From IMG/VR virus record IMGVR_UViG_3300008450_000295, positions 1 to 30,426 of that record: a stretch of DNA of 30,426 bases; one strand, written 5' to 3'. Origin of the DNA: a virus. Within the stretch, counting starts at the first letter, position 1; every line of letters begins with the position of its first letter. The position numbers and the translations under genes are program-made. Below are positions 386-20,521 of this stretch, piece after piece. The notes beneath the pieces were generated by a model, which saw only the letters and a list, made by a program, of their open reading frames with translations, was not told the DNA's origin and did no database searches.

Positions 386-859
386 ATGACCGATTTAGAC
401 GCCCTAAAAACCAAATACGATTATGACCCCAACACCGGCGAATTTCGCCGCCGCACGTCTTGGGGTAGGCAAAAAGCAGGCGACATAGCAGGGTGCATAT
501 CGCCGCAAGGATACCGATATTTGACGTTTAAAGGGCGAGCAACACCAGCGCACAGACTGGCATGGTTATGGGTCTATGGAGATTGGCCTTCCGCCGACGT
601 TGACCACATAAACCGCGATAGGCTAGACAACCGTATCGACAATTTGCGGTCTGTCACGCGCTCTGTTAATTGCCACAATATAGCTGGCAGAGCCTCGTCC
701 GGCGAAAAAGGCGTGACGGCGGCGTCAAAAAACCGCAATGCTTGGGAAGCGCGCATAACGGTAAACCGCAAAGCCATATACCTTGGGCTCTATCAAACTA
801 AGGAGGAAGCGGCGGCGGCTAGAAAAGGTGCCGAAATTGCGTTAGGATTACGGTTATGA
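386..859 (+). CDS. HNH homing endonuclease with C-terminal AP2-type DNA-binding domain
   Basis: A 157-residue free-standing HNH nuclease. The HNH region is visible around residues 70-98: DVDHIN (71-76, with the D-H pair 73-74), then DNRIDNLR (81-88) and a late N/H pair (95-98), as in the HNH_3 type. An N-terminal strand-rich part (YDPNTGEF, residues 13-20) is typical of these phage enzymes. Residues about 107-150 resemble an AP2/ERF-like DNA-binding domain (GV…W.ARI, YLGLYQTKEEAAAA). Such proteins cut a target site and spread by homing, and HNH proteins near terminases sometimes assist packaging. The gene is visibly more A/T-rich than its neighbours, which suggests acquisition. Its stop overlaps the next start (ATGA at 856-859). 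The start at 386 has only a weak ribosome binding site. Confidence 0.85.
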   Translation: MTDLDALKTKYDYDPNTGEFRRRTSWGRQKAGDIAGCISPQGYRYLTFKGRATPAHRLAWLWVYGDWPSADVDHINRDRLDNRIDNLRSVTRSVNCHNIAGRASSGEKGVTAASKNRNAWEARITVNRKAIYLGLYQTKEEAAAARKGAEIALGLRL

Positions 860-1326
860 CCTTCTACTCACTGCCGTTCACGCCCGAACGCGTCGAAGCC
901 ACTGAGGCGCGTCTGGAAGCGATCTATGAAGCCGCCAAGTACGGCCTGAAGGGTGACAGCCTCGCGCTTAAGGCTGGACTGACGCCGGCGCAGTTTCGCC
1001 GCTTGCAGGAGTTTGACCCGCTGGTGGAGATGGCGGAACTGAAAGGCCGGGCGGACGGCGAATACCTCGCGGCCAAGACGCTGCACGACGCAGCAGCGGA
1101 CGGCGACGCCACCGCGGCGCTGAACATCCTCAAGCACCAGCATGGGTGGGTAGCCAAGCAGCAGATCGACGTGAACGTCGACCAGCAGATCAGCGTGATC
1201 GGCGCGCTGGAGCGGGCGCAGACGCGCGTAATCGAGGGTATCTATAGCCCGGTAAATGCGCTAGAAGACCGGACGGCCACGGTGCCCAGCCCTACGGAGA
1301 CGGTCCATGCGCAACGCGATGACTAA
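856..1326 (+). CDS. Putative terminase small subunit
   Basis: A 156-residue protein, the likely DNA-recognition subunit of the packaging motor, called mainly from position just upstream of TerL. Residues about 18-55 look like a helix-turn-helix segment (a basic, helical stretch ending in GLTPAQFRRLQEF), as in the DNA-binding domain of small terminases. The middle part (about 60-100) is Ala-rich and helical. A helical segment with VDVDQQ-type residues and a variable tail follow. The order HTH, helical oligomerisation region, tail matches the family. Its 3' end overlaps the next gene by 20 bases. No sequence motif by itself proves the call. Confidence 0.6.
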   Translation: MTFYSLPFTPERVEATEARLEAIYEAAKYGLKGDSLALKAGLTPAQFRRLQEFDPLVEMAELKGRADGEYLAAKTLHDAAADGDATAALNILKHQHGWVAKQQIDVNVDQQISVIGALERAQTRVIEGIYSPVNALEDRTATVPSPTETVHAQRDD

Positions 1327-1789
1327 TGGGTTCATTCCCTACATGCCCGTGGAAAGCGGCGGTCCGGCAGTCATGCGGATTGATCCGTTTGGGGATGCCA
1401 GCGGCATGTCGACGCCCGGCGCGTTCGGGATGAACTTCAACCTTGGCGGCGGCAGCCGCGGCGCTACGCAAGTGGCACCTGTAACCCCGATCTCTGCGGC
1501 CATGCAGCGCACGCAGGACTTCGCGCCCATCCCGACGCTGGCGGACATGCCCGCCATGCCGACATTCAGCACCATGACGCCGTTCCAGCCCTATCAGGGC
1601 TTCCAAGGCCGCGGCGCCAGCGCAGGCGGCCCCCGCAACGCCATGCTGGGCGCCGGCTACGCACCACCGCCGCAGTCGCCGTTCGGGCGGTACAGGACGC
1701 CCAGCACCTACGGAACATACGGTAGCGGGGCCTACGGAGGCACTTACGGCAACGCAGGCGGCTTCAACCCCTACGAAAACATGTTCTGA
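1307..1789 (+). CDS. Hypothetical Gly/Tyr/Pro-rich low-complexity protein between TerS and TerL
   Basis: A 160-residue protein I do not recognise. The N-terminal part has Pro and Met spaced through it. The last 40 or so residues are a low-complexity Gly-Tyr-Thr tract (repeats like [14 protein letters not shown]) ending in NPYENMF. It has no membrane segment, signal peptide or enzyme motif. The start at 1307 is chosen because a GGAG lies 7 bases upstream; a second ATG at 1319 is possible. It overlaps TerS by 20 bases and TerL by one base (TGATG), so it is translated with the packaging genes. It may be disordered and self-associating; that is inference from composition only. Confidence 0.7.
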
Positions 1790-3315
1790 TGCAGCAGCCG
1801 GTCTACTCCGCTCAGGACGAGATGGAACTGATGGCGCGGCTGTGGTCGCCCGCCATCAAGGACGACCCGCTGGCCTTCGTGCTGCTGGCCTTCCCGTGGG
1901 GCGAACGCGGCACGCCGCTGGAGCATTTTACGGGCCCGCGCAAATGGCAGCGTGACATCCTAGTAGATTTACGTAATCATATCCAAGCCAACAGCGGAAA
2001 GCTGGATTATGATACGTTTAGGAAAGCGGTGGCTTCGGGTCGCGGTATTGGCAAGTCTGCCTTGGTTAGTTGGCTGGTTATCTGGATGCTATCCACCCGG
2101 ATAGGCTCGACCACTATCGTGTCGGCCAACTCCGAAGCGCAGCTACGCTCGGTCACATGGGCGGAAATTACCAAGTGGCTGGCGATGTCGCTGAACAGCC
2201 ACTGGTTCGAGGTAGCCGCCACCCGCATCATGCCCGCCAAATGGCTGACGGAAATCGTCGAGCGCGACCTGAAGAAAGGCACGCGCTACTGGTCGGTCGA
2301 AGGGCGGCTGTGGTCTGAAGAGAACCCTGACGCCTACGCAGGGGTACATAACTTCGACGGTGTGCTGCTGATCTTCGACGAAGCCAGCGGTATCCCCGAC
2401 AGCATCTGGTCGGTGGCGCAGGGCTTCTTCACGGAAAACACGCCCAATCGCTTCCATTTGGCCTTCTCCAATCCCCGCCGCAACACGGGGTATTTCTACG
2501 AGACGTTCAACTCCAAGCGCAGCTTCTGGCACACGCGCAACATCGACGCCCGCGAGGTCGAAGGAACCGACAAAAACCTCTACCAGCAGATCATCGACGA
2601 GTACGGCCCGGACAGCTACCAAGCCAACGTCGAGGTCTACGGACAGTTCCCGTCGGAGGGCGACGACCAGTTCATCGCAGTCAACGTGGTCGATGACGCC
2701 ATGCGCCGGCCGCGCTACAAGGATGCGTCCGCGCCCATCGCTATCGGAGTGGATCCGGCGCGGTTCGGGTCGGACGCAACCGTGATCGCCGTGCGGCAGG
2801 GCCGCGACATCGTCGCCATCAAGCGGATGCGCGGGGCCGACACGATGGAAGTGGTCGGGCACGTCATCGACGCCATCGAGGAGTACAAACCGGCGCTGGT
2901 CTGCATCGACGAGGGCGGCCTCGGCGCAGGCGTCGTGGACCGACTGAAGGAGCAGCGGTACAAGATCAGGGGCGTCAACTTCGGCAACAAGGCGCAGAAG
3001 CAGATGATGTACGGCAACAAGCGCGCCGAAATGTGGGGCGCCATGCGCGACTGGCTCAAGGAAGCGTCGATCCCCGAGGATCGCTTCCTGAAAACCGACC
3101 TGATCGGGCCGCGCGTCAAGCCTGACAGCAAAGGCACGCTGTTCCTTGAAAGCAAGAAGGACATGAAAGCCCGCGGGCTGGCCTCGCCAGACGCTGCCGA
3201 CGCCATCGCGCTGACTTTCGCATACCCGCTGGCGTCCCGCGAAGCCCGCGTTGACAGAACACCGCGCAAAGGGTACTCTATGAGCGGAATTTCTACATCT
3301 TGGCTGGGGGCCTGA
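1789..3315 (+). CDS. Terminase large subunit (ATPase and nuclease)
   Basis: The 508-residue packaging motor. It pumps DNA into the procapsid through the portal using ATP and cuts the concatemer. The ATPase domain has a Walker A GRGIGKS (84-90) and a Walker B LLIFDE (193-198, ending in the catalytic acid pair D197-E198). A coupling-type SNPRRNTG follows at about 227-234. The RNase H-like nuclease domain has GVDPARFGSD (320-329, D322), VCIDEGG (371-377, D374) and SPDAADA (467-473, D468/D471), which together can hold the two metals. Length is usual for the family. The start overlaps the preceding stop. Gene order (TerS-like, TerL, portal) supports headful-type packaging as in P22, but the sequence does not prove the mode. 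Confidence 0.96.
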   Translation: MQQPVYSAQDEMELMARLWSPAIKDDPLAFVLLAFPWGERGTPLEHFTGPRKWQRDILVDLRNHIQANSGKLDYDTFRKAVASGRGIGKSALVSWLVIWMLSTRIGSTTIVSANSEAQLRSVTWAEITKWLAMSLNSHWFEVAATRIMPAKWLTEIVERDLKKGTRYWSVEGRLWSEENPDAYAGVHNFDGVLLIFDEASGIPDSIWSVAQGFFTENTPNRFHLAFSNPRRNTGYFYETFNSKRSFWHTRNIDAREVEGTDKNLYQQIIDEYGPDSYQANVEVYGQFPSEGDDQFIAVNVVDDAMRRPRYKDASAPIAIGVDPARFGSDATVIAVRQGRDIVAIKRMRGADTMEVVGHVIDAIEEYKPALVCIDEGGLGAGVVDRLKEQRYKIRGVNFGNKAQKQMMYGNKRAEMWGAMRDWLKEASIPEDRFLKTDLIGPRVKPDSKGTLFLESKKDMKARGLASPDAADAIALTFAYPLASREARVDRTPRKGYSMSGISTSWLGA

Positions 3316-3318
3316 CAC

Positions 3319-3585
3319 ATGGCCGACAAGAAAAAGTCAGTATCACTGGCGGTTGGGCGCGGCGAAAAGCTGCCGGTGTCCAAGGGCGCAGGGCTGACCG
3401 CTAAAGGCAGGGCCAAGTATAACCGCGAAACTGGGTCAAACCTCAAGGCACCGGCGCCGAACCCCAAGACAAAGGCCGATGCAGGCCGTAAGAAGTCGTT
3501 TTGCGCCCGAATGGGCGCGGTAGCAGCCAAGGCCAAGGACGGCGAACGTGCCAAGGCCAGCCTCAAGCGGTGGAAATGCTCATGA
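3319..3585 (+). CDS. Small basic DUF6321-like phage protein
   Basis: An 88-residue Lys/Arg-rich protein. It contains the block GLTAKGRAKYNRETGSNLKA and a later GRKKSFCARMGA, which I recognise as the conserved core of the DUF6321 family found in many phages and marine viruses. The function is unknown. The single Cys in KSFCARM is part of the conserved core. The rest is mainly K, R, A and G with no membrane segment, so a nucleic-acid-binding or virion-internal role is plausible but unproven. It starts 3 bases after TerL ends, and its stop overlaps the next start (ATGA). Confidence 0.8.
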   Translation: MADKKKSVSLAVGRGEKLPVSKGAGLTAKGRAKYNRETGSNLKAPAPNPKTKADAGRKKSFCARMGAVAAKAKDGERAKASLKRWKCS

Positions 3586-3731
3586 AACCGGGACTATACG
3601 CCAACATTCACGCCAAAAAGGCCCGAATTGCGGCCGGATCAGGCGAAAAAATGCGCAAACCGGGCGCTAAAGGCGCTCCGACCGCCAAAGCGTTCCGTGA
3701 CAGCGCCAAAACCGCGAAGAAAGGCAAGTAA
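3582..3731 (+). CDS. 49-residue Lys/Arg-rich miniprotein
   Basis: A very short protein with 11 Lys and 3 Arg against 2 acidic residues. The start at 3582 is set by the ATGA overlap with the stop of the gene before. The pattern LYANIHAKKARIAAGSGEKM followed by RKPG…GAPTAKAF is one I recognise from small genes found next to terminase or portal genes in many environmental phages. No function is known. It has no hydrophobic segment. It sits in a run of four basic miniproteins, which suggests a shared job, perhaps with packaged DNA; that part is inference. Confidence 0.75.
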   Translation: MKPGLYANIHAKKARIAAGSGEKMRKPGAKGAPTAKAFRDSAKTAKKGK

Positions 3732-3732
3732 A

Positions 3733-3942
3733 ATGGCCAAGCCGCCCCGCATGACCCTGCCGAAGCCCAAGCCGGCTACCAAACCGGCCCCGAACATGTC
3801 CACCAGCGCCGTTCTGGGCCGCGCTGAGCGCATTCAGCGCGAAGAAGCAGGCGAAAGTGCCCTGATGCGGCGTCGGCCCGCCAAGGACGTGATTAGCGTC
3901 GTCACGCGCATGCGCGAGACGCCTGTGAAGAAGGGCCGCTGA
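3733..3942 (+). CDS. 69-residue basic Pro/Lys/Arg-rich miniprotein
   Basis: The start at 3733 is one base after the preceding stop; the frame is open further upstream, but that part overlaps the previous gene. The N-terminus is Pro-Lys-rich (PKPKPATKPAP), followed by a likely helix with mixed charge (RAERIQREE), an RRRPAKD patch and a basic end. Seven Lys and ten Arg against six acidic residues. I do not recognise a family. It is read in the same direction as its neighbours without a gap. Confidence 0.65.
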   Translation: MAKPPRMTLPKPKPATKPAPNMSTSAVLGRAERIQREEAGESALMRRRPAKDVISVVTRMRETPVKKGR

Positions 3943-3943
3943 C

Positions 3944-4087
3944 GTGCCTCTGGTCAAGTCGGCGGGCAAAACCGCCTTCCGCAAAAACATCAAGGCTGAA
4001 ATTGCCGCTGGAAAGCCGCAAAAACAAGCGGTTGCTATCGCCTATGCGGTAAAGCGCGAAGCCGCCAAGAAGGGCAAGAAGAAGTAA
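3944..4087 (+). CDS. 47-residue Lys-rich miniprotein with GTG start
   Basis: The start is the GTG at 3944, one base after the preceding stop; the reading frame ends one base before the portal ATG. Twelve Lys and two Arg against two Glu in 47 residues. The pattern PLVKSAGKTAFRKNIKAEI followed by GKPQKQAVAIAYAVKREA matches a small family I recognise from many phages, where it also lies close to portal or terminase genes. Function unknown. It is probably one amphipathic helix with a basic tail. Confidence 0.75.
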   Translation: MPLVKSAGKTAFRKNIKAEIAAGKPQKQAVAIAYAVKREAAKKGKKK

Positions 4088-4088
4088 T

Positions 4089-6356
4089 ATGGCCGATCCC
4101 ACGGGCATCAATACGGCTGGCAAGGTCGCCAACGTGGGGTCTAACCCTGCCAAGTCGTCGGGCAGCGACGACAAGATGGCGACCATGCGCCACCGGCTGC
4201 AAATGGCGCAGTCGGCCTACTCGGACAGCCGCGAGGATGAACTCGACGACCTGCGGTTCATGGCGGGCAGCCCTGACAATCAGTGGCAGTGGCCGGCCGA
4301 CGTGCTGGCGACCCGCGGGGCCGTGCAGGGCCAGACGATCAACGCCCGCCCGTGCCTGACGATCAACAAGCTGCCGCAGCACGTCCGTCAGGTCACGAAC
4401 GAGCAGCGCCAGAACCGCCCCAGCGGCAAGGTCATCCCGGCTGATGACAACGCCGACATCGAGGTCGCGGAAATCCTGAACGGCGTGGTGCGCCACATCG
4501 AGTACATGTCGGACGCCGACGTGGCCTACGACACGGCCTGCGACAATCAGGTCACTTACGGTGAAGGCTACCTCCGCCTGCTGACCGAGTACTGCAACGA
4601 CGAGACGTTCGATCAGGACATCCGCATCGGGCGGGTGCGCAACTCGTTCAGCGTCTACATGGACCCGACGATCCAAGACCCGTGCGGGGCTGACGCGCAG
4701 TGGTGCTTCGTTACGGAAGACATCCTCAAGAGCGAATACGAGCGGATGTTCCCGGACGCGACGCCGATCTCGACGCTGTACAGCCAAGGCGTCGGCGATC
4801 AGGGCATCTCGTCGTGGCTTCAGGAAGACACCATCCGCATCGCGGAGTATTTCTACTGCGAGTACGAGCGTGCCACCCTGCACCTCTACCCTGACAACCA
4901 GACGGCCATCTCGCGCACGCCCCGCGACAAGCAGCTTATGGCCATGTTCGGGGCACCCGTCCGCAGCCGTCAGGTAGACCGCAAGAAGGTCATGTGGATG
5001 AAGACTAACGGCTTCGACGTGCTCGACGAGCGCGAGTGGCCGGGCAAGTGGATTCCTGTCGTCCGTGTGATCGGCAACGAGTGGGAAGTGGACGGCCGAC
5101 TGCACATCAGCGGTCTTGTGCGCAACGCCAAGGACGCGCAGCGCATGTACAACTACTGGACCAGCCAAGAGGCAGAGATGCTGGCGCTGGCGCCCAAGGC
5201 GCCGTTTATCGGTTACGGCGGCCAGTTCGAAGGCTACGAACAGCAGTGGAAGACCGCCAACACGACCAACTGGCCGTATCTGGAGGTCAATCCCGACGTG
5301 ACGGACGGCGCTGGGAATGTCCTCCCTCTTCCGCAGCGTGCACCTCCTCCGTTGCCCCAGACTGGCCTGATACAGGCCAAAATGGGGGCTGCTGACGACA
5401 TCAAGGGCACCACAGGCCAGTACGACGCCTCACTGGGGATCGGCGGCAACGAGCGCTCGGCCAAGGCTATCGTGGCCCGTGAAAAACAGGGCGACGTGGG
5501 GACGTACCACTACGTCGATAACCTCGCCCGCGCGGTGCGTCACATCACGCGTCAGATCGTCGACCTGATCCCGAAGATTTACGATACGCAGCGCATCGCC
5601 CGCATCATTGGTGTCGATGGCGACGTGAGCATGGTCAAGTTCAACCCGATGCAGCAGGAGCCGGTCAAGGAAATCCGCGACCAATCGGGCGCCATGATCG
5701 AGAAAATCTACAACCCCGGCGTGGGCACTTATGACGTGATGGTCACGACCGGCCCCGGCTACATGACCAAGCGTCAGGAAGCGCTCGACGCCATGAGCCA
5801 GATTTTGCAGGCCAACCCGCAGCTTTGGACGGTGGCCGGCGACCTGTTCATCAAGAACATGGACTGGCCGGGCGCGCAGGAAATGGCCGCACGGTTCAAG
5901 AAGATTCTGGACCCGAAGGTGCTGTCCGAAGGCGATCAGTCGCCCGAAATGATGGCGGCGCAGCAGCAGATCGAGGCAATGACGCAGGAACTGAATCGCG
6001 TCACCGACATCATGCAGAACATTCAGGACAGCGCCGAAATGCAGAAGGTCGAGATCGACCGTTACCGGTCCGAGATCGACGCCTACAACGCCGAAACCAA
6101 ACGCATCGCCGCGGTCCAGAACAGCATGACGCCGGAACAGATTCAGGACATCGTCATGGGCACTATCGCCGCCGCGCTGGACACCGGCGACCTGATCGGC
6201 GAGGCACCGCAGATGCGCGAGATGCCTGAAGCCGAGGAACCTGAAGAGGCTCCGGAAATGCCTGAAATGATGCCAGAAATGCCTGAAATGATGCCAGAAA
6301 TGCCTGAAATGATGCCAGAAATGCCCGAAGGAATGGCTGAAAATGAGCAACTGTAA
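4089..6356 (+). CDS. Portal protein, P22 type
   Basis: A 755-residue portal, the dodecameric ring at the capsid vertex through which DNA enters and leaves. Length is close to the P22 portal and well above siphovirus portals. An early tract around residues 40-60 (DELDDLRFMAG, QWQWP) and the NKLPQHVRQVTNEQRQNRP segment near residue 95-113 are typical of the P22-like family. Residues about 620-680 are Gln/Glu-rich and helical, as expected for the barrel region. The C-terminus is an acidic Met-Pro-Glu repeat encoded by a 21-base tandem repeat. It lies just after the miniprotein set and overlaps the next gene by 14 bases. Confidence 0.93.
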   Translation: MADPTGINTAGKVANVGSNPAKSSGSDDKMATMRHRLQMAQSAYSDSREDELDDLRFMAGSPDNQWQWPADVLATRGAVQGQTINARPCLTINKLPQHVRQVTNEQRQNRPSGKVIPADDNADIEVAEILNGVVRHIEYMSDADVAYDTACDNQVTYGEGYLRLLTEYCNDETFDQDIRIGRVRNSFSVYMDPTIQDPCGADAQWCFVTEDILKSEYERMFPDATPISTLYSQGVGDQGISSWLQEDTIRIAEYFYCEYERATLHLYPDNQTAISRTPRDKQLMAMFGAPVRSRQVDRKKVMWMKTNGFDVLDEREWPGKWIPVVRVIGNEWEVDGRLHISGLVRNAKDAQRMYNYWTSQEAEMLALAPKAPFIGYGGQFEGYEQQWKTANTTNWPYLEVNPDVTDGAGNVLPLPQRAPPPLPQTGLIQAKMGAADDIKGTTGQYDASLGIGGNERSAKAIVAREKQGDVGTYHYVDNLARAVRHITRQIVDLIPKIYDTQRIARIIGVDGDVSMVKFNPMQQEPVKEIRDQSGAMIEKIYNPGVGTYDVMVTTGPGYMTKRQEALDAMSQILQANPQLWTVAGDLFIKNMDWPGAQEMAARFKKILDPKVLSEGDQSPEMMAAQQQIEAMTQELNRVTDIMQNIQDSAEMQKVEIDRYRSEIDAYNAETKRIAAVQNSMTPEQIQDIVMGTIAAALDTGDLIGEAPQMREMPEAEEPEEAPEMPEMMPEMPEMMPEMPEMMPEMPEGMAENEQL
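6258..6329 (+). repeat. 21-base tandem repeat in the portal C-terminus
   Basis: Three exact copies of a 21-base unit (6258-6278, 6279-6299, 6300-6320) and a partial fourth (6321-6329) encode the heptapeptide MPEMMPE. The copies are identical at every base, so the expansion is recent and the copy number probably varies between relatives. Confidence 0.9.
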
Positions 6357-6708
6357 CGACTTCATCGGAATGCTGTTTCTGGCACGCGACGTGACGCATT
6401 CGGCGCACCTGAACACGCGCAGCTACGCCAAGCACACGGCGCTGGGCGAGTTTTACGACGGGGTCATTGATCTCGCGGACAAGTTTGCGGAAGCCTATCA
6501 GGGCAAATACGGCCTGATCGGGCCTATTTCGCTGATGTCAGCCAAGAAGACCAGCAACGTCGTAGACTTCCTTGAAGGTCAAGTGGACGACCTGATGGAA
6601 ATGCGGTATAAGGTCGTCGAGAAGGAGTGCACCCCACTCCAGAACATCATCGACGAGATTTTTGGGCTGTATTATACCACCCTGTACAAACTCAAATTTT
6701 TGGCGTGA
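6343..6708 (+). CDS. DUF5856-like helical protein, possibly ferritin-like
   Basis: A 121-residue, mainly helical protein. The stretch THSAHLNTRSYAKHTALGEF (residues 18-37) followed by YDGVIDLADKFAEAYQG resembles the DUF5856 family of phage proteins. The His, Glu and Asp spacing (H19, H22, H30, then D and E one to two turns later) is reminiscent of the metal-binding helix of Dps/ferritin-like proteins. The second half is helical with a charged middle. No function is established. It overlaps the end of the portal gene by 14 bases and precedes the tail protein genes. Confidence 0.6.
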   Translation: MSNCNDFIGMLFLARDVTHSAHLNTRSYAKHTALGEFYDGVIDLADKFAEAYQGKYGLIGPISLMSAKKTSNVVDFLEGQVDDLMEMRYKVVEKECTPLQNIIDEIFGLYYTTLYKLKFLA

Positions 6709-7378: not shown

Positions 7379-9910
7379 ATGTCTGTTAATCCCTCACCTA
7401 TCGGCGGTTTTGCTGGTCAGTTTTTTGATAACAACGGCCAGCCGCTGTCAGGGGGTAAGATTTACACCTACGCGGCCGGCACTACCACGCCGCAGGCTAC
7501 GTACACCAGCGCGCTCGGGGGCACGCCGCACGCCAATCCTATCGTTTTGGACAGCGCCGGGCGCGTACCGGGCGGCGAGATTTGGCTGACCGACAGCCTG
7601 ATCTACAAGTTTGTCATCGAAACCTCGACGGCAATCCTGATTGGCACCTACGATAACATCACCGGCGTCAACTCGAACTTTGTCAACTACACGGTGCAGG
7701 AAGAGGTCATCACGGCCACGGCCGGTCAGACTGTGTTCAATCTCTCGACGATCAACTACACGCCGGGCACCAACTCGCTGTCGGTCTACATTGACGGTGT
7801 GAACCAGTACGTCGGCGACAGCTATCTGGAGACGGACAGCGACACCGTGACCTTTACCAGCGGCTTGCATGTCGGTGCCGAAGTCAAGTTCACCACGGCC
7901 GTTCAAACTACCACCGGGGCTGTAGACGCGAGCGACGTAGGGTATACTGCGGGCTTTACCGGGGCCACCGCGCAAACCGTCCAAACCAAGCTGGAGCAAT
8001 ACGTCTCCGTCAAGGACTTCGGCGCTGTAGGCGATGGCGTGGCGGATGACGGCCCAGCAATCAACGCAGTCATATCGGCGCTCAACGCGGCTGGCGGCGG
8101 CACACTTTGGTTCCCGGAAGGTGTCTACAATATCGACACTGCGTTAGTTTTGCTTTCAAACGTGCATCTTAATATAGGCGCAAAAGCCGTTCTTGACGTG
8201 GCCACCTTGTCGGGCGGTATTGCAATGCAAGCGCAAGGTACCGTGGGCACGGCAGTGCCGCTCGCGTCTAATGCTTCACGCACCAACACTAGCGTAGCGG
8301 TAGCCGCAGGCGCCGAGGCTGCCTTTACCGCTGGCGATTATGTGCTGATCTACTCTGAACGGCAGCCCGACCCCGCAGCGCAGAAAGACGGTGAGTTCCA
8401 GATCGTCAAATCGACTTCCAGCGGATCAATTACGCTTCAAGACGGCCTGTGGAGTGATTATGCTACGGCTGACACGGCGTCTATTCGCAAGCTGAACCCG
8501 GTCTCCAATATCCGCGTTTTTGGTGGCGGCACCATTCGTGGTTCTGGAACGAACGATAAGTTGCTGACGTTTTACCGCTGCAACGATGTTCACGTTGATA
8601 GCATCATTTTTGAGGACGGCGATTTTGAGGCTTTGACCTTCCAAAGCACCCTTAATTTTTCCGCGACCAATTGCTCATTCTATCGCTCCAACAATGCTGG
8701 CACTGGTTATGGTGTAGCTATCTATGACGGCAGCCAATGGGGCGACGTGATCGGCAACAAGTTCATTGATTGCCGTCATGGCGTTAGCGGCGGCGGGAAC
8801 ACTGGTGGCTATGGTTTAAACCGCTTTGTCAACATCATTGGCAACAATGCTTATGGTGGCCTTGATAGCGCATACGATGGTCATAGCCCGTGCCAGTATT
8901 GGAACTTTGTCGGAAACACGGCGACCGCCAAAAACGGCACCAACTCTGATGGCATAACATGGCAAGGCCTTGACGTTGTCATCGCTGACAACACCCTAAT
9001 CGGTTGCAAAAACTATGGCGTTTTTTTGGAGCCGCGCCGCCCTGAAAATCAAACTGGTTTAACCGTTAAGGGCAACGTAATCCGTGACAGCGGCCTTTTT
9101 GGCGTCTACCTTCTCCCAGTTGGCACCGTTGGGACGATTAGCGGCGTCAACATCACGGGCAACACTGTTCTGAATGCGGCGAACCACGGAATTTTAGCGC
9201 GGTCGAACACTGCGAACCGCGATATTAACGGGCTAAACATTTCAGACAACACCGTAATCTCCAGCACTGGTCGCGGCGTCTATGTTTTGTCTGAAGCAGC
9301 GACGATCTCGGCTGTCGATATATCGGGCAATACGATTTACGGCAGCAGCGCCGAAGGCATCTATGTCTACGCCAACACCGCTGACATTAACAACTGTGGC
9401 GTCCGCGACAACAGCATCACCATGACCGCCGCCACGGACGCAATTGGCGTGCAGACCGGTGCAACGGGTAATTTTGCACAGTTGACCATTACTGGAAATG
9501 TTGGAGGCGGTGGGACGCACGGCGTTCGCAAATTTACTGGGGTAGGAACGTACACGAATGTCTGGGTAGCTGACAACGCTTTGACAGGATCGACCGCACG
9601 TATTCGCGGGTTTTCTGAAGCGGAGTTCGGCGAAAACCAAGGCTATATTTTGTTTGCCTCAGCCACTTATGACCCACCCAGCCTAAACGATGGTGCTGGC
9701 GCGGAAACCGATGTGACCGTAACGGGTGCGGCGCTTGGCGATTACGTCGATCAGATTTCGTTTTCGCTTGATACGCAAGGCATCAATTTGGACGGCCAAG
9801 TTACTGCGCTCAACACCGTCACGGTGCGTTTTCAGAATGAAACTGGCGGAACGATTGATCTTGGAAGCGGGACTATTCGTATCCGTGTCCGTAAGGTGCC
9901 TAACCCATGA
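7379..9910 (+). CDS. Tailspike with P22-like head-binding domain and beta-helix body
   Basis: An 843-residue receptor-binding spike. Residues about 8-105 form a P22 tailspike-like head-binding domain: GGFAGQFFDNNGQPLSGGKI, then a TYAAGTTTPQATYT segment and the LDSAGRVPGGEIWL motif. A linker with a small beta domain follows (about 110-205). From about residue 209 the motif VKDFGAVGDGVADD opens a right-handed beta-helix of the pectate-lyase-3/GH55 type. Long runs of Asn/Gly/Ile turns (such as ISGNTIYGSSAEGIYVYAN) continue to about residue 750. A short C-terminal domain ends the protein. Composition changes near base 8100: the head-binding part is GC-rich like its neighbours and the beta-helix is more A/T-rich, which marks a domain swap. 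The substrate cannot be read from the sequence. Confidence 0.9.
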   Translation: MSVNPSPIGGFAGQFFDNNGQPLSGGKIYTYAAGTTTPQATYTSALGGTPHANPIVLDSAGRVPGGEIWLTDSLIYKFVIETSTAILIGTYDNITGVNSNFVNYTVQEEVITATAGQTVFNLSTINYTPGTNSLSVYIDGVNQYVGDSYLETDSDTVTFTSGLHVGAEVKFTTAVQTTTGAVDASDVGYTAGFTGATAQTVQTKLEQYVSVKDFGAVGDGVADDGPAINAVISALNAAGGGTLWFPEGVYNIDTALVLLSNVHLNIGAKAVLDVATLSGGIAMQAQGTVGTAVPLASNASRTNTSVAVAAGAEAAFTAGDYVLIYSERQPDPAAQKDGEFQIVKSTSSGSITLQDGLWSDYATADTASIRKLNPVSNIRVFGGGTIRGSGTNDKLLTFYRCNDVHVDSIIFEDGDFEALTFQSTLNFSATNCSFYRSNNAGTGYGVAIYDGSQWGDVIGNKFIDCRHGVSGGGNTGGYGLNRFVNIIGNNAYGGLDSAYDGHSPCQYWNFVGNTATAKNGTNSDGITWQGLDVVIADNTLIGCKNYGVFLEPRRPENQTGLTVKGNVIRDSGLFGVYLLPVGTVGTISGVNITGNTVLNAANHGILARSNTANRDINGLNISDNTVISSTGRGVYVLSEAATISAVDISGNTIYGSSAEGIYVYANTADINNCGVRDNSITMTAATDAIGVQTGATGNFAQLTITGNVGGGGTHGVRKFTGVGTYTNVWVADNALTGSTARIRGFSEAEFGENQGYILFASATYDPPSLNDGAGAETDVTVTGAALGDYVDQISFSLDTQGINLDGQVTALNTVTVRFQNETGGTIDLGSGTIRIRVRKVPNP

Positions 9911-11094
9911 TAACGCCTGCATACGCACCTACCGCTACCGAGCGGGTTTTACCTCGGCTTGCGCTGGACTTTACGACTGGCGTGCTTGATCCTCGTGTGA
10001 CTGTCACGCGGGCATTAAACACGGCTACCCGCGTCAACAGCAGCGGCCTGATTGAGACTGTCAACGCTAATTTGCCTCGTTTCGACTACGACCCCGCCAC
10101 ACTTGCGCCTAAAGGGTTGTTGATTGAAGAAACACGCGCAAACTTGCTTTTGCATTCGTCCGGCGCAAACGAAAGTGCGTGGACAAAAGACGCAACCGGC
10201 ACTGGTGTGGCCCCTGTCGTCACACCCAACTTCGCCGTTGCACCAGATGGCACTACGACTGCTGATCGCATTGAGTTTAACCGAGGCGCAGGCACTACTG
10301 TCAGTGATCTTAGTCGTGTTTTTCAGTTTATTGGCGGAACCGATACGCGCACAGCCACGGTTTATTTAAAGAGCAACGACGCGAACACGTATTCGCTCCA
10401 GCTTCTGACTGGCTCCAATGTCCAGAATATATCTGTAACACCGTCTTCATTTACGCGGTTTTCAGTATCTGGCGCTAGCGGGGCTAACTTTATGCTACGG
10501 CTGGCCGGGTCAGTCGGCGCGTCTACGACCGCGGATATTTTGTTTTGGGGCGCACAACTCGAAGCAGGAGCATTTGCGACCAGCTACATCCCAACGACCA
10601 CGACCAGCCTGACGCGCAACTCTGACGTTGTATCAATGACAGGGACAAATTTTAGCAGTTGGTACAACGCCAGCGAAGGGGCGTTTCTTGCTGAATACTC
10701 ATCTAACGCTGCTACGGCCAGCACCTTTAGCAAAGCAGTAATATCTGTTAACGATACCACATTAAACAACCGACTTTATGTTAACATTAGCACAAGCGCC
10801 ATCCCATTCGTGTTTATTAATTCCAGTGGTTCCTCGCAAGCCAACATAAGCACTGGGGTCACACTTACAAATGAGACCACAACCAAAACAGCTTTTGCGT
10901 ACAAAGCGGACAGTTTTGTCGCGGCTACCAATGGGGCCGCAGTTGGGACCGATAGCTTAGGGTTAGTTCCTGCTGTCAGTGCCCTTAATATTGGGCATCA
11001 AGTCGGGTTTGCTTCGCTGTTTGGTCACATGAAAAAATTATCGTATTGGCCCCAGCGTTTGATAAACAGCGAAACTCAATCATTTTCAAAATAG
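9907..11094 (+). CDS. Lectin-like tail fibre/spike protein
   Basis: A 395-residue protein. The segment GLLIEETRANLLLHS (residues about 70-85), followed by AWTKDATGTG, is a hallmark of phage spike and fibre proteins with a carbohydrate-binding or concanavalin-like fold. A Thr/Ser-rich beta-sandwich follows, with LFWGAQLEAGAFATSYIPTT (about 218-237), again typical of these phage fibre domains. The C-terminal part resembles a second sandwich. No head-binding or catalytic motif is seen. It overlaps the upstream spike by four bases (ATGA). It may bind the host surface, perhaps together with the spikes. Confidence 0.75.
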   Translation: MITPAYAPTATERVLPRLALDFTTGVLDPRVTVTRALNTATRVNSSGLIETVNANLPRFDYDPATLAPKGLLIEETRANLLLHSSGANESAWTKDATGTGVAPVVTPNFAVAPDGTTTADRIEFNRGAGTTVSDLSRVFQFIGGTDTRTATVYLKSNDANTYSLQLLTGSNVQNISVTPSSFTRFSVSGASGANFMLRLAGSVGASTTADILFWGAQLEAGAFATSYIPTTTTSLTRNSDVVSMTGTNFSSWYNASEGAFLAEYSSNAATASTFSKAVISVNDTTLNNRLYVNISTSAIPFVFINSSGSSQANISTGVTLTNETTTKTAFAYKADSFVAATNGAAVGTDSLGLVPAVSALNIGHQVGFASLFGHMKKLSYWPQRLINSETQSFSK

Positions 11095-11103
11095 GTGTCC
11101 GCC

Positions 11104-12840
11104 ATGTCTTTGACCAAAGCAACATACTCAATGATAGAAGGCGCGCCGGTAAATGTACTGGATTATGGCGCGGTTGGCGACAACACAGCGGACGATACTG
11201 CGGCCATTCAAGCCGCGATCACCGCCGCGAACGCCAATAACGCAAGCGTCTATATTCCTGCGGGGATTTACAAAGTAAGTTCGTCGATTTCGTGTTATGG
11301 TAATTCAAAAATATATGGTGATGGGCGAGGATCGAGGATTAACCCTATCATCAGCGACGGTACTGCTGTTTTTGTCTACCCAGCAAATGCGCAGTTTTTT
11401 TCGGTTGAAGATTTGCAAATTGCGTCGAGCGTTGTTTTCAACACATATATAGCTGGCGGCGCGGCGCAAAATTGCACCGCAATTAAGCACACTACTTACG
11501 CCAACCGATTTTACTACAAAAACATCATTATATATGGCGTTGCTGTAGGCTTGGACATTTCTGGGTTTATCGGCACATTAGACAACGTGCATGTTAACTG
11601 CTGTGATGTTGGTTTAGTCGGAACCAATCTAAACTCTTCAGATATTAATCTGAGGGCGGAAAACAATAAAAAGGCTTTTAGCCTTACCGGAAGTTACGGG
11701 GTATTTTTTCGCCAACTTCTCGACGAAGGGGGACACGTATCACCTCTTGCGGCCACAATAGATGGTTGCGGGGGAGTTCATTTTGCTTCGCCTTACTGGG
11801 AGCAGGTAGTTAGCGCTCCTCGCGCAACACCTTACTTATCCATTGGTGCTACAACGGCGTGTCAAAGCATACGTATCACTGGAATGAATTTGGTTGATTA
11901 CGTTACCGCAGGCACAGCTATGCTTTCTGCAGATGACGTTGACGGGCTATTTGTGGAAGGCCATGTTTCGCGTGGCGTCAACGGTGGCCCAACGGTATTG
12001 ACCACAAGCAATACAACTAATGTTCGCCAGAACGTATGGTCTAATGGAGCGTTAAACGCTTCACCTTGGTTGACTGAAGGTAGCAAGCAAGAAGGCGCTT
12101 GCTTCAACTATTTTCCTAACCGCAATTTTGATATGTGGTTCCGTGGCTGGAACAACGTAACTCCGAACCGCAGCACTTTTGCCCAAGAAACAACGTTGGT
12201 GCGAAAAGGTGCTAATGCGGTTAAAATTACCGCTACGGCAGGCCAAAACTTTAATGTTTTGACTTGGACGCTAGTTGGAAGCGCAGTTACGTCACTGCGC
12301 GGCAAACGCATCGTTATGGGCGCTTGGGTTTATGTTCCGGATATTTCCGAATTTACCGACGTTTTTGCGTCCCGTACAAAGTTTCCGTCAATCACACTAG
12401 ATAGCTTTAACGGCTCTGCGACCGTAAGTAGCGACAGCCGCAACAACCGTTTTTCAGTTGGGGAATGGCAGTTTATGTGGACTGAAGTAACAGTTCAGGT
12501 AGACGCAACTCAGATTTTCCTAAACACTTACGTAAACCAAAGTTCAAATGTAGCCAACGGCAACGAATATATCGTTGTTGACAGCATTGTCCTAGCCGAA
12601 GCTAATACACCTTTTGAGCGCTTGATGAACGACGATCTTCCAGACAGCGCTATGATTGCAACGATTGGCGTTAACGGAAAAATGATTAGTTCGACTTCGG
12701 GCGTCCCTAGCGACGCTGACCAAACATATGAGATTGGCGACCGCGCGTATAATCAATCGCCGGCTGTTGGTCAGCCAAAGTCGTGGGTATGTACAGTGGC
12801 CGGATCGCCCGGCACTTGGACCAGCGAAGGCAACCTTTAA
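11104..12840 (+). CDS. Second beta-helix spike, lacking a head-binding domain
   Basis: A 578-residue protein starting at ATG 11104; the AGGTG just upstream at 11092-11096 suits this start better than the in-frame GTG at 11095. It begins directly with SMIEGAPVNVLDYGAVGDNT and DDTAAIQAAI, the entry to a pectate-lyase-3/GH55 beta-helix, with YIPAGIYKVSS next. There is no P22-type head-binding domain before it. The beta-helix seems to end near residue 300. The last part (about 325-540) looks like a carbohydrate-binding beta-sandwich (a FDMWFRGW segment, then LTWTLVGSAVTSLRGKRIVM). The C-terminal segment QTYEIGDRAYNQSPAVGQPK plus WVCTVAGSPGTW is a common end of phage spikes. The gene is clearly A/T-richer than its neighbours. 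Confidence 0.85.
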   Translation: MSLTKATYSMIEGAPVNVLDYGAVGDNTADDTAAIQAAITAANANNASVYIPAGIYKVSSSISCYGNSKIYGDGRGSRINPIISDGTAVFVYPANAQFFSVEDLQIASSVVFNTYIAGGAAQNCTAIKHTTYANRFYYKNIIIYGVAVGLDISGFIGTLDNVHVNCCDVGLVGTNLNSSDINLRAENNKKAFSLTGSYGVFFRQLLDEGGHVSPLAATIDGCGGVHFASPYWEQVVSAPRATPYLSIGATTACQSIRITGMNLVDYVTAGTAMLSADDVDGLFVEGHVSRGVNGGPTVLTTSNTTNVRQNVWSNGALNASPWLTEGSKQEGACFNYFPNRNFDMWFRGWNNVTPNRSTFAQETTLVRKGANAVKITATAGQNFNVLTWTLVGSAVTSLRGKRIVMGAWVYVPDISEFTDVFASRTKFPSITLDSFNGSATVSSDSRNNRFSVGEWQFMWTEVTVQVDATQIFLNTYVNQSSNVANGNEYIVVDSIVLAEANTPFERLMNDDLPDSAMIATIGVNGKMISSTSGVPSDADQTYEIGDRAYNQSPAVGQPKSWVCTVAGSPGTWTSEGNL

Positions 12841-19329: not shown

Positions 19330-19751
19330 TGCGGCTGGCGCGCACTCACGACGCGGACGCCGTCAACCGGGTAGTCAATCACCCTGACGTGCGACCGTTT
19401 GTGGGAGCGCCGGAAGCCGGCGAACTGGACCTGTCGGCGATTGTCGAACGGCCAGAGCACTGGTTCCTGCTTGGCGAACATGGCGGCTTTGGGCTGCTAT
19501 GGACTGCGCCGCGCACGTATGAAGTCCACACCTTCATCCTGCGCAGCGGCCGCGGCGAATGGGGCAACGCCGCCCGCGCTGAAGGCATCGACTTCGCGCG
19601 CCGGCACGGCGCCAAGGCACTTTGGACCAAGATACCGCCGCGGTCGCCGCACGTCGAACGCTTTGCCCGTCAAGGGGGTATGCAGCCGACCGGAGAAGTG
19701 ATAGAAACATTCGGTGTTCCGCACCGCATATTCAGGATGGAGTTAGACTGA
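19329..19751 (+). CDS. GNAT-like protein in the P22 gp14 slot (DUF2824-like)
   Basis: A 140-residue protein. The alternation of strands and helices, with EVHTFILRSGRGEWGNAARA (residues about 64-83), then ARRHGAKALWTKIPP and a C-terminal GVPHRIFRMEL, fits a GNAT acetyltransferase fold. I recall that P22 gene 14, at the same place between needle and gp7, belongs to DUF2824. The phosphate-loop pattern of acetyl-CoA binding (R/Q-x-x-G-x-G/A) is present only loosely (RSGRGEWG), so enzyme activity is uncertain. It is coupled to both neighbours by overlapping start/stop codons. Confidence 0.65.
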   Translation: MRLARTHDADAVNRVVNHPDVRPFVGAPEAGELDLSAIVERPEHWFLLGEHGGFGLLWTAPRTYEVHTFILRSGRGEWGNAARAEGIDFARRHGAKALWTKIPPRSPHVERFARQGGMQPTGEVIETFGVPHRIFRMELD

Positions 19752-20521
19752 TGCCCGTTGCAGGTGCAATTATCGGCGGCGTTGCGTCCATTGGCGGTGC
19801 GGCTATCGCGTCGAGCGGCGCTAAGAAGGCTGCCAGCGCGCAGGAGCAGGCTTCGCGGGAAGCGCTGGCCGCGCAGGAGCGGATGTTCCAGCGGCAGATT
19901 GAACTGCAAGAGCCGTTCCGGCAGGCTGGCCTCACTGCGCAGCAGCAGATCATGCAATTGCTCGGCATCGGCGGTGACGCTACGGCTGCCGGCTACGGCA
20001 GCCTTGCCAAGCCCTTCGGCACCGAACAGTTCCAGCAAGACCCCGGCTACGCCTTCCGCCAGTCAGAAGGGACGAAGGCGCTGGAGCGTTCGGCGGCTGC
20101 ACGCGGCGGTCTGATGTCGGGCGCTACGCTGAAGGGCATCCAGCGCTTCGGGCAGGACTTGGCCAGTCAGGAATACCAGAACGCGTTCAACCGCTATCAG
20201 GTCGAGCGCGCCGCGCGCCTGAACCCGCTTCAGTCGCTGATGGGGTCGGGCCAGAGCGCGGCTAACGTGCTAACTGGCGCCGCCGGTCAGGCCGGGCAAA
20301 GCCAAGCGCAGAACATCATGAACGCTGGCGCGGCCCGCGCGTCGGGTTATGTCGGCAGCGCAAACGCGCTCGGAAGCGCCCTTGGGTCTATCGGCAGCAT
20401 GGCCACGCAGTTTCCGCTGTATCAGGCGCAGGTGAACTACATGAACTCGCTAGCTAACCGCGGTGGCGGTCTTTCGGCCGATGTCAACCGCACCTTTGCC
20501 GCCAATCCGAGTATTTTCTGA
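19751..20521 (+). CDS. DNA ejection (transfer) protein, P22 gp7-like
   Basis: A 256-residue protein. The start at 19751 overlaps the preceding stop (TGATG). The N-terminus is a Gly/Ala-rich hydrophobic segment (AGAIIGGVASIGGAAIASSG), followed by a helical Ala/Gln/Arg-rich region and a repeated QAGQ/SGQ pattern. The block DPGYAFRQSEGTKALERSAA, then RGGLMSGATLKGIQRFGQDLA, is a hallmark of gp7-type ejection proteins in many phages. Such proteins are packed in the head and injected to help DNA cross the envelope. Gene order (gp14 slot, gp7, gp20, gp16) agrees. Confidence 0.85.
   Translation: MPVAGAIIGGVASIGGAAIASSGAKKAASAQEQASREALAAQERMFQRQIELQEPFRQAGLTAQQQIMQLLGIGGDATAAGYGSLAKPFGTEQFQQDPGYAFRQSEGTKALERSAAARGGLMSGATLKGIQRFGQDLASQEYQNAFNRYQVERAARLNPLQSLMGSGQSAANVLTGAAGQAGQSQAQNIMNAGAARASGYVGSANALGSALGSIGSMATQFPLYQAQVNYMNSLANRGGGLSADVNRTFAANPSIF

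Follow-up and report, generated by a model that had tools for sequence, protein, structure and literature searches.

Three of the four small, very basic proteins encoded between the terminase and portal genes of this virus, here called A, B and D, are probably procapsid or virion-internal proteins working like the internal proteins of phage T4, and the fourth, C, is a lineage-specific addition. The window analysed, a stretch of 30,426 bases, is a whole IMG/VR virus record, and its matches to P22-like portal, scaffold, major head protein, head-closure and DNA-ejection families describe the head module of a P22-like podovirus. On the plus strand, the gene for the terminase large subunit (TerL, 1789..3315; Terminase_6C, phrog_2) is followed three bases on by A (3319..3585; 88 residues, pI 10.7, net charge +18), B (3582..3731; 49 residues, pI 10.9, net charge +12), C (3733..3942; 69 residues, pI 11.7, net charge +11) and D (3944..4087; 47 residues, GTG start, pI 10.7, net charge +12), and one base past D the gene for the P22-like portal protein begins (4089..6356; PF16510, E 7.6e-169). 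A and B overlap by 4 bases (ATGA), and B and C as well as C and D are separated by 1 base. Among the 34 window genes examined, A to D have the four highest net charges per residue (0.255, 0.245, 0.205 and 0.159; the next gene has 0.064). A sequence-only reading had described four Lys/Arg-rich genes of 88, 49, 69 and 47 residues at this place, overlapping or spaced by zero to three bases, and this description is confirmed, down to the 12 Lys, 2 Arg and 2 Glu of D.

Upstream of TerL, a probable gene for the terminase small subunit (TerS, 856..1326, plus strand) matches phrog_606 weakly (E 0.05); a kin gene at the same place in phage DSL-LC05 is annotated as terminase small subunit, and by profile search the candidate recurs upstream of TerL in related viral contigs. 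Between TerS and TerL lies an open reading frame of 160 residues (1307-1789) that has no family match and becomes Gly-, Pro- and Tyr-rich in its last part; its relatives were found in 9 sources only, mostly contigs carrying C. The gene after the portal (6343-6708) matches phrog_858, a starvation-inducible transcriptional regulator, and keeps its place in the clade. Two tail-spike-like genes and another large open reading frame are located between portal and scaffold (7379-12840), within the head module. A separate DNA-ejection match is found at 19751-20521 (phrog_598). Among the open reading frames scanned, no prohead or maturation protease was recognised; the record is a fragment, and some of its open reading frames have no match.

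All four open reading frames are genes rather than chance products, and A, B and D are under purifying selection. The median pN/pS against relatives of 60-97% identity is 0.17 for A (n=127), 0.20 for B (n=173) and 0.22 for D (n=122); that of C is 0.50, from n=2 comparisons only. The start sites of B and D are backed by relatives in alignments of 30 and 62 members, respectively, and nine of the ten relatives of C align from residue 1. A passes the gathering cut-off of Pfam family DUF6321 (PF19846; E 2.7e-18, 66.8 bits versus 28.5) and has conserved Cys62, Trp85 and Cys87 in an alignment of 71 relatives. B matches phrog_16028 over its full length (E 1.1e-26, residues 1-47 on 2-48 of 50) and is conserved residue by residue, with the motif GLYANIHAK..GSGEKMRKPG..GAPT in 30 aligned relatives, and D likewise matches phrog_2423 over its full length (E 1.3e-16, residues 1-45 on 1-45 of 52). 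It had been claimed that three of the four proteins match small families, and these are the three. For C, neither Pfam nor PHROGs nor the phage collection gave a match, and in Pfam DUF6321 is the only family found, B, C and D being without a match. The families of A, B and D, with 215, 79 and 392 records, are already catalogued without function, being listed as "unknown function" in many phages; DUF6321 was not found mentioned in the open literature searched. None of A to D matched the nucleoid or histone-like families of Pfam, although they may still bind DNA, and none matched the ejection-protein families of PHROGs.

The gene order has been kept in many viral contigs, which were gathered separately for A, B, C and D and then searched with profiles. 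In the 28 contigs with at least 3 kb on either side of A, B (26/28), D (25/28), TerL (25/28) and the portal gene (25/28) are found within 3 kb of A, always on the same strand as A, and the usual order in the clade of the window is TerS-TerL-A-B-D-portal. It should be noted that part of this agreement reflects common descent because the lists hold the closest relatives, and that independent lineages weigh more. DSL-LC05 and the Manatee Spring podovirus ctNMl277 have the order TerL-A-..B-D-..portal with proteins 62-91% identical to those of the window, but C is missing from both and further genes are interspersed. In DSL-LC05 these are a gene for an HNH endonuclease between A and B (L002, 6653-6988) and a GroES-like gene between D and the portal gene (L002, 7295-7543). 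C was present in ten viral contigs only, four of them exact copies, always together with A, B and D and in the order A-B-C-D; eight of the ten also carry a relative of the open reading frame between TerS and TerL. C was therefore rejected as a conserved fourth component, and being clade-specific it is outside any fixed four-part system. Of the expectation that the four families co-occur and share one role, what stands is that A, B and D recur together elsewhere and are found in head or packaging modules of unrelated phages; C falls out, and one role common to all four is not supported.

In T4-like contigs A is located between gp16 and gp17, the two terminase genes, in all 21 cases that could be tested, and so it is in S-SM1, S-E7, P-HM1, ACG-2014e, P-TIM40, S-CREM2 and S-SZBM1, P-SSM7 being the exception, in which the A-bearing gene lies near a cytidylyltransferase gene. 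The constant neighbourhood of a terminase in two unrelated systems, TerL-A-B-D-portal and gp16-A-gp17, speaks for the alternative that A, B and D act before or during packaging as cofactors of terminase and portal (in motor assembly, DNA-end handling or portal docking), and that their detection in virions is carry-over. This we regard as unlikely. The T7-like cyanophages KBS-P-1A (between scaffold and psbA/capsid) and P-SCSP1u (between capsid and tail tube) have, as in the window, homologues of A and B side by side, here within the block of head genes, yet away from the terminase and beside scaffold or capsid genes; neither C nor D was seen there, and the place relative to portal and capsid is another one. 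The packaging role also leaves unexplained the targeting sequences on A and on joined B and A, the fusion of D to a protease and the high coverage of a D homologue in virions, all described below. In HTVC104P A is found shortly past the capsid gene, in some pelagiphages the order is B-A, in Pbunavirus D is flanked by the head morphogenesis gene and the protease gene, and in Enterobacter phage phiEap-2 D lies in the head region.

Homologues of D and A have been detected in purified virions, in every case in other phages and with no free-standing A or B among them. From purified virions of the Pbunavirus SCUT-S1, 7 peptides of ORF22 (7.46 kDa) were recovered, which cover 77% of the protein (PMC6521218). 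This protein (S1_022; 68 residues, 7.41 kDa calculated), encoded directly after the second minor head gene, is a D homologue with 57% identity to D over 46 residues and a match to phrog_2423 at 1e-28. In mature virions of Pa193, gp20 and gp21 were detected by LC-MS and are unaccounted for in the cryo-EM atlas (PMC11042391); from the gene order after portal gp19, gp20 would be the head morphogenesis protein and gp21 the D homologue. S-CREM2 carries DUF6321 at 109291-109512, inside ORF137 (108049-109521), of which 4 peptides with 4.1% coverage were found in CsCl-purified virions (PMC10665884 Table 3); at so low a coverage the peptides may stem from parts other than the A domain. S-SZBM1_192, composed of a targeting sequence and A, is missing from the list of 30 proteins published for S-SZBM1 virions (PMC9146016), and Lys/Arg-rich proteins are easily missed after trypsin digestion. 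The main text of the cryo-EM paper on P-SCSP1u makes no mention of mass spectrometry. The label "structural protein T4 GC0119" in S-E7 was not taken as proof.

Small basic proteins stick to DNA and to particles, and with their high Lys/Arg content A to D could be thought of as late, cytoplasmic nucleic-acid-binding proteins without a role in the particle, the virion detections being contamination. Such an explanation appears rather improbable: in most annotated phages examined the genes belong to a head or packaging module; work by two groups places D homologues, detected or inferred, in the virions of two Pbunavirus phages, where their net charge is only +2; and targeting sequences and a protease fusion are not what a purely cytoplasmic role would account for. 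Entry into the capsid, one of the roles suggested by the sequence-only reading, is its best-supported part because of the synteny with head and packaging genes in unrelated phages and the D and A homologues in purified virions; its interpretation as a whole is partly supported.

Further evidence comes from N-termini. T4 internal proteins reach the prohead via a capsid-targeting sequence that makes up about the first ten residues (PMC7697877, PMC3012670), and T4 IPII and IPIII both start with MKTYQEFIAE. In cyanophages, P-SSM7_194 starts with MKTYSQFIEE, followed by a B-like segment and A; P-TIM40_114 consists of MKNFAQYIEE and A; S-SZBM1_192 starts with MKTFKQYITE and has A at its end; and two contigs encode A/B proteins with N-termini similar to these three. 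On A/B proteins in T4-type loci a motif modelled on T4 was observed 5 times versus 0.45 expected (p 1e-4) and a broader motif 4 times versus 0.9 expected (p 0.013), p values that are only indicative because the motif was chosen and refined after the first examples had been seen. Most A-bearing T4-like proteins are without the strict motif (4 matches among 85 A/B proteins), and the motif was found on no D protein and on only one A/B protein from window-type loci. S-CREM2 served as an outside check: of its 3,946 possible starts 8 carry the broader motif, and five of these 8 belong to virion proteins detected by mass spectrometry (gp6, gp13, gp14, gp136 and gp154); the enrichment versus 52 of 221 has a p of about 0.003-0.009, the value varying with the number of the remaining three that are taken as real gene starts. 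One of the five is an S-adenosyl methionine hydrolase and another is kinase-like, and examples of such genes are found at record positions 5081, 10546, 12846, 107301 and 124608 (L331-L340). Ten other motif matches in T4-type loci seem to belong to a single family, whose members have about 100-120 residues and a targeting-like N-terminus of their own (MKSFxxFLSES..) and adjoin A (L252, 2811-3164; L256, 3296-3667; L341, 17315-17644; and others). Long Lys-rich mosaics between gp16 and gp17 (L011, 4762-6249; L015, 1462-3771; L341, 18253-20376) contain internal targeting-like stretches and Ile-x-Glu sites and might be cleaved into several head peptides.

T4 internal proteins have been described as defence proteins carried in by their targeting sequence (PMC3012670), and this, together with the S-adenosyl methionine hydrolase among the S-CREM2 virion proteins with such N-termini, agrees with the proteins of the cassette being effectors that are ejected with the DNA and either counter a defence of the host, in the way T4 IPI* counters a restriction enzyme, or bind its nucleic acid. 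We consider this improbable. Effectors tend to be patchy and to evolve fast, whereas the pN/pS of A, B and D is near 0.2 across very different hosts, and no match of A to D to anti-defence families was seen in Pfam or PHROGs. The variable protein C would fit the part of an effector best.

Fusions were observed as well. The head maturation protease of Obolenskvirus (LZ35, vB_AbaM-SPB) begins with the D domain, which occupies residues 1-40, and its match to the protease family (phrog_2229) sets in at residue 59 (L345, 1344-2678; L344, 4001-4993). B and A are joined in one protein in P-SSM7_194 and ACG-2014e_96. In P-HM1_163 a B module is found near the C-terminus, the gene being located beside the cytidylyltransferase gene, whose product was detected by mass spectrometry in virions of S-SM1, S-CREM2 and S-SZBM1. 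Through these fusions D is linked to the prohead, and B is linked to A.

Structures were predicted from alignments of window and viral-contig proteins only. The AlphaFold model of D is a two-helix hairpin (helices 9-21 and 26-45, pLDDT 83) with a Lys-rich tail; its fold comparison gave a common helical hairpin only (best Z 5.9, rmsd 1.4, 40 residues), with unrelated proteins tied. A is predicted to be helical (pLDDT 69), and its fold comparison gave no match in the PDB and one weak viral match, which is a DUF6321 protein itself. When the sequences of the PDB were searched with profiles of A, B and D, nothing was found. Most D copies, that of the window included, are strongly basic; the conserved core is not basic in two genera, with a net charge of +2 in PB1_20 of Pbunavirus and of 0 at the N-terminus of the Obolenskvirus protease. 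Since PB1 and LZ35 have a near-neutral core where most copies are basic, D is read as a procapsid-docking element. Condensation of DNA, which had been suggested as a common role, was not adopted: it fits neither the near-neutral D core in the two genera nor B, in which residue-by-residue conservation would be needless for a generic polycation.

We therefore return to the reading of A, B and D as head-internal proteins. They would be made together with the packaging motor and the portal, enter the procapsid and accompany the DNA in the virion. D would be a docking two-helix hairpin for entry into the procapsid, to which a Lys-rich tail has been added, and A and B would sit, as basic modules, amid the packaged DNA, where they may shield phosphate charge or from where they may be ejected into the host. 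In T4, lysines of internal proteins have been seen to contact DNA phosphates (PMC3012670). For the present phage we infer incorporation, location inside the shell, contact with DNA and ejection.

This does not mean that the cassette can be filed with the T4 internal proteins. T4 IPI, IPII and IPIII are small in-head proteins whose type of N-terminus is shared by some cyanophage homologues of A and of joined B and A, but none of A to D in the window starts with a capsid-targeting sequence, which spans about 10 residues and has Glu as its last one, and it is for this reason that the cassette was kept apart. Stand-alone genes without a cleavable targeting sequence suit a P22-type head in which no maturation protease is recognised. 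Related proteins elsewhere differ in other ways. The T4-GC119 proteins of T4-like cyanophages have DUF6321 at the C-terminus and are encoded between the terminase genes, and the S-CREM2 member was detected in virions; many of them are long mosaics that include other Lys-rich motifs, and some have targeting N-termini, whereas the window has A alone. SCUT-S1 ORF22/PB1_gp20 shares phrog_2423 with D but has a nearly neutral core and a non-basic C-terminal extension, and the Obolenskvirus protein, also of phrog_2423, differs by its nearly neutral core and by being fused to the prohead protease.

A wider generalisation, which is less likely than not, is that A, B and D serve many phages as components of the head interior and make up a common, so far unrecognised in-capsid set across marine and freshwater phages. 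Phages with a protease would fuse them behind targeting sequences or onto the prohead protease, podoviruses without a recognised one would keep free mini-genes beside the motor, and in both the proteins would pack with the DNA and perhaps enter the host with it. As far as the open literature searched shows, the assignment of these families to the head interior and their free-standing form beside TerL and portal are new. Families of "unknown function" are thereby linked to virion mass spectrometry tables, to targeting sequences and to a head protease, which gives them a concrete in-head role to be considered. The gp16-gp17 interval of T4-like cyanophages emerges as a site for capsid-targeted proteins, and for podoviruses without a maturation protease free-standing counterparts of the T4 internal proteins are suggested.
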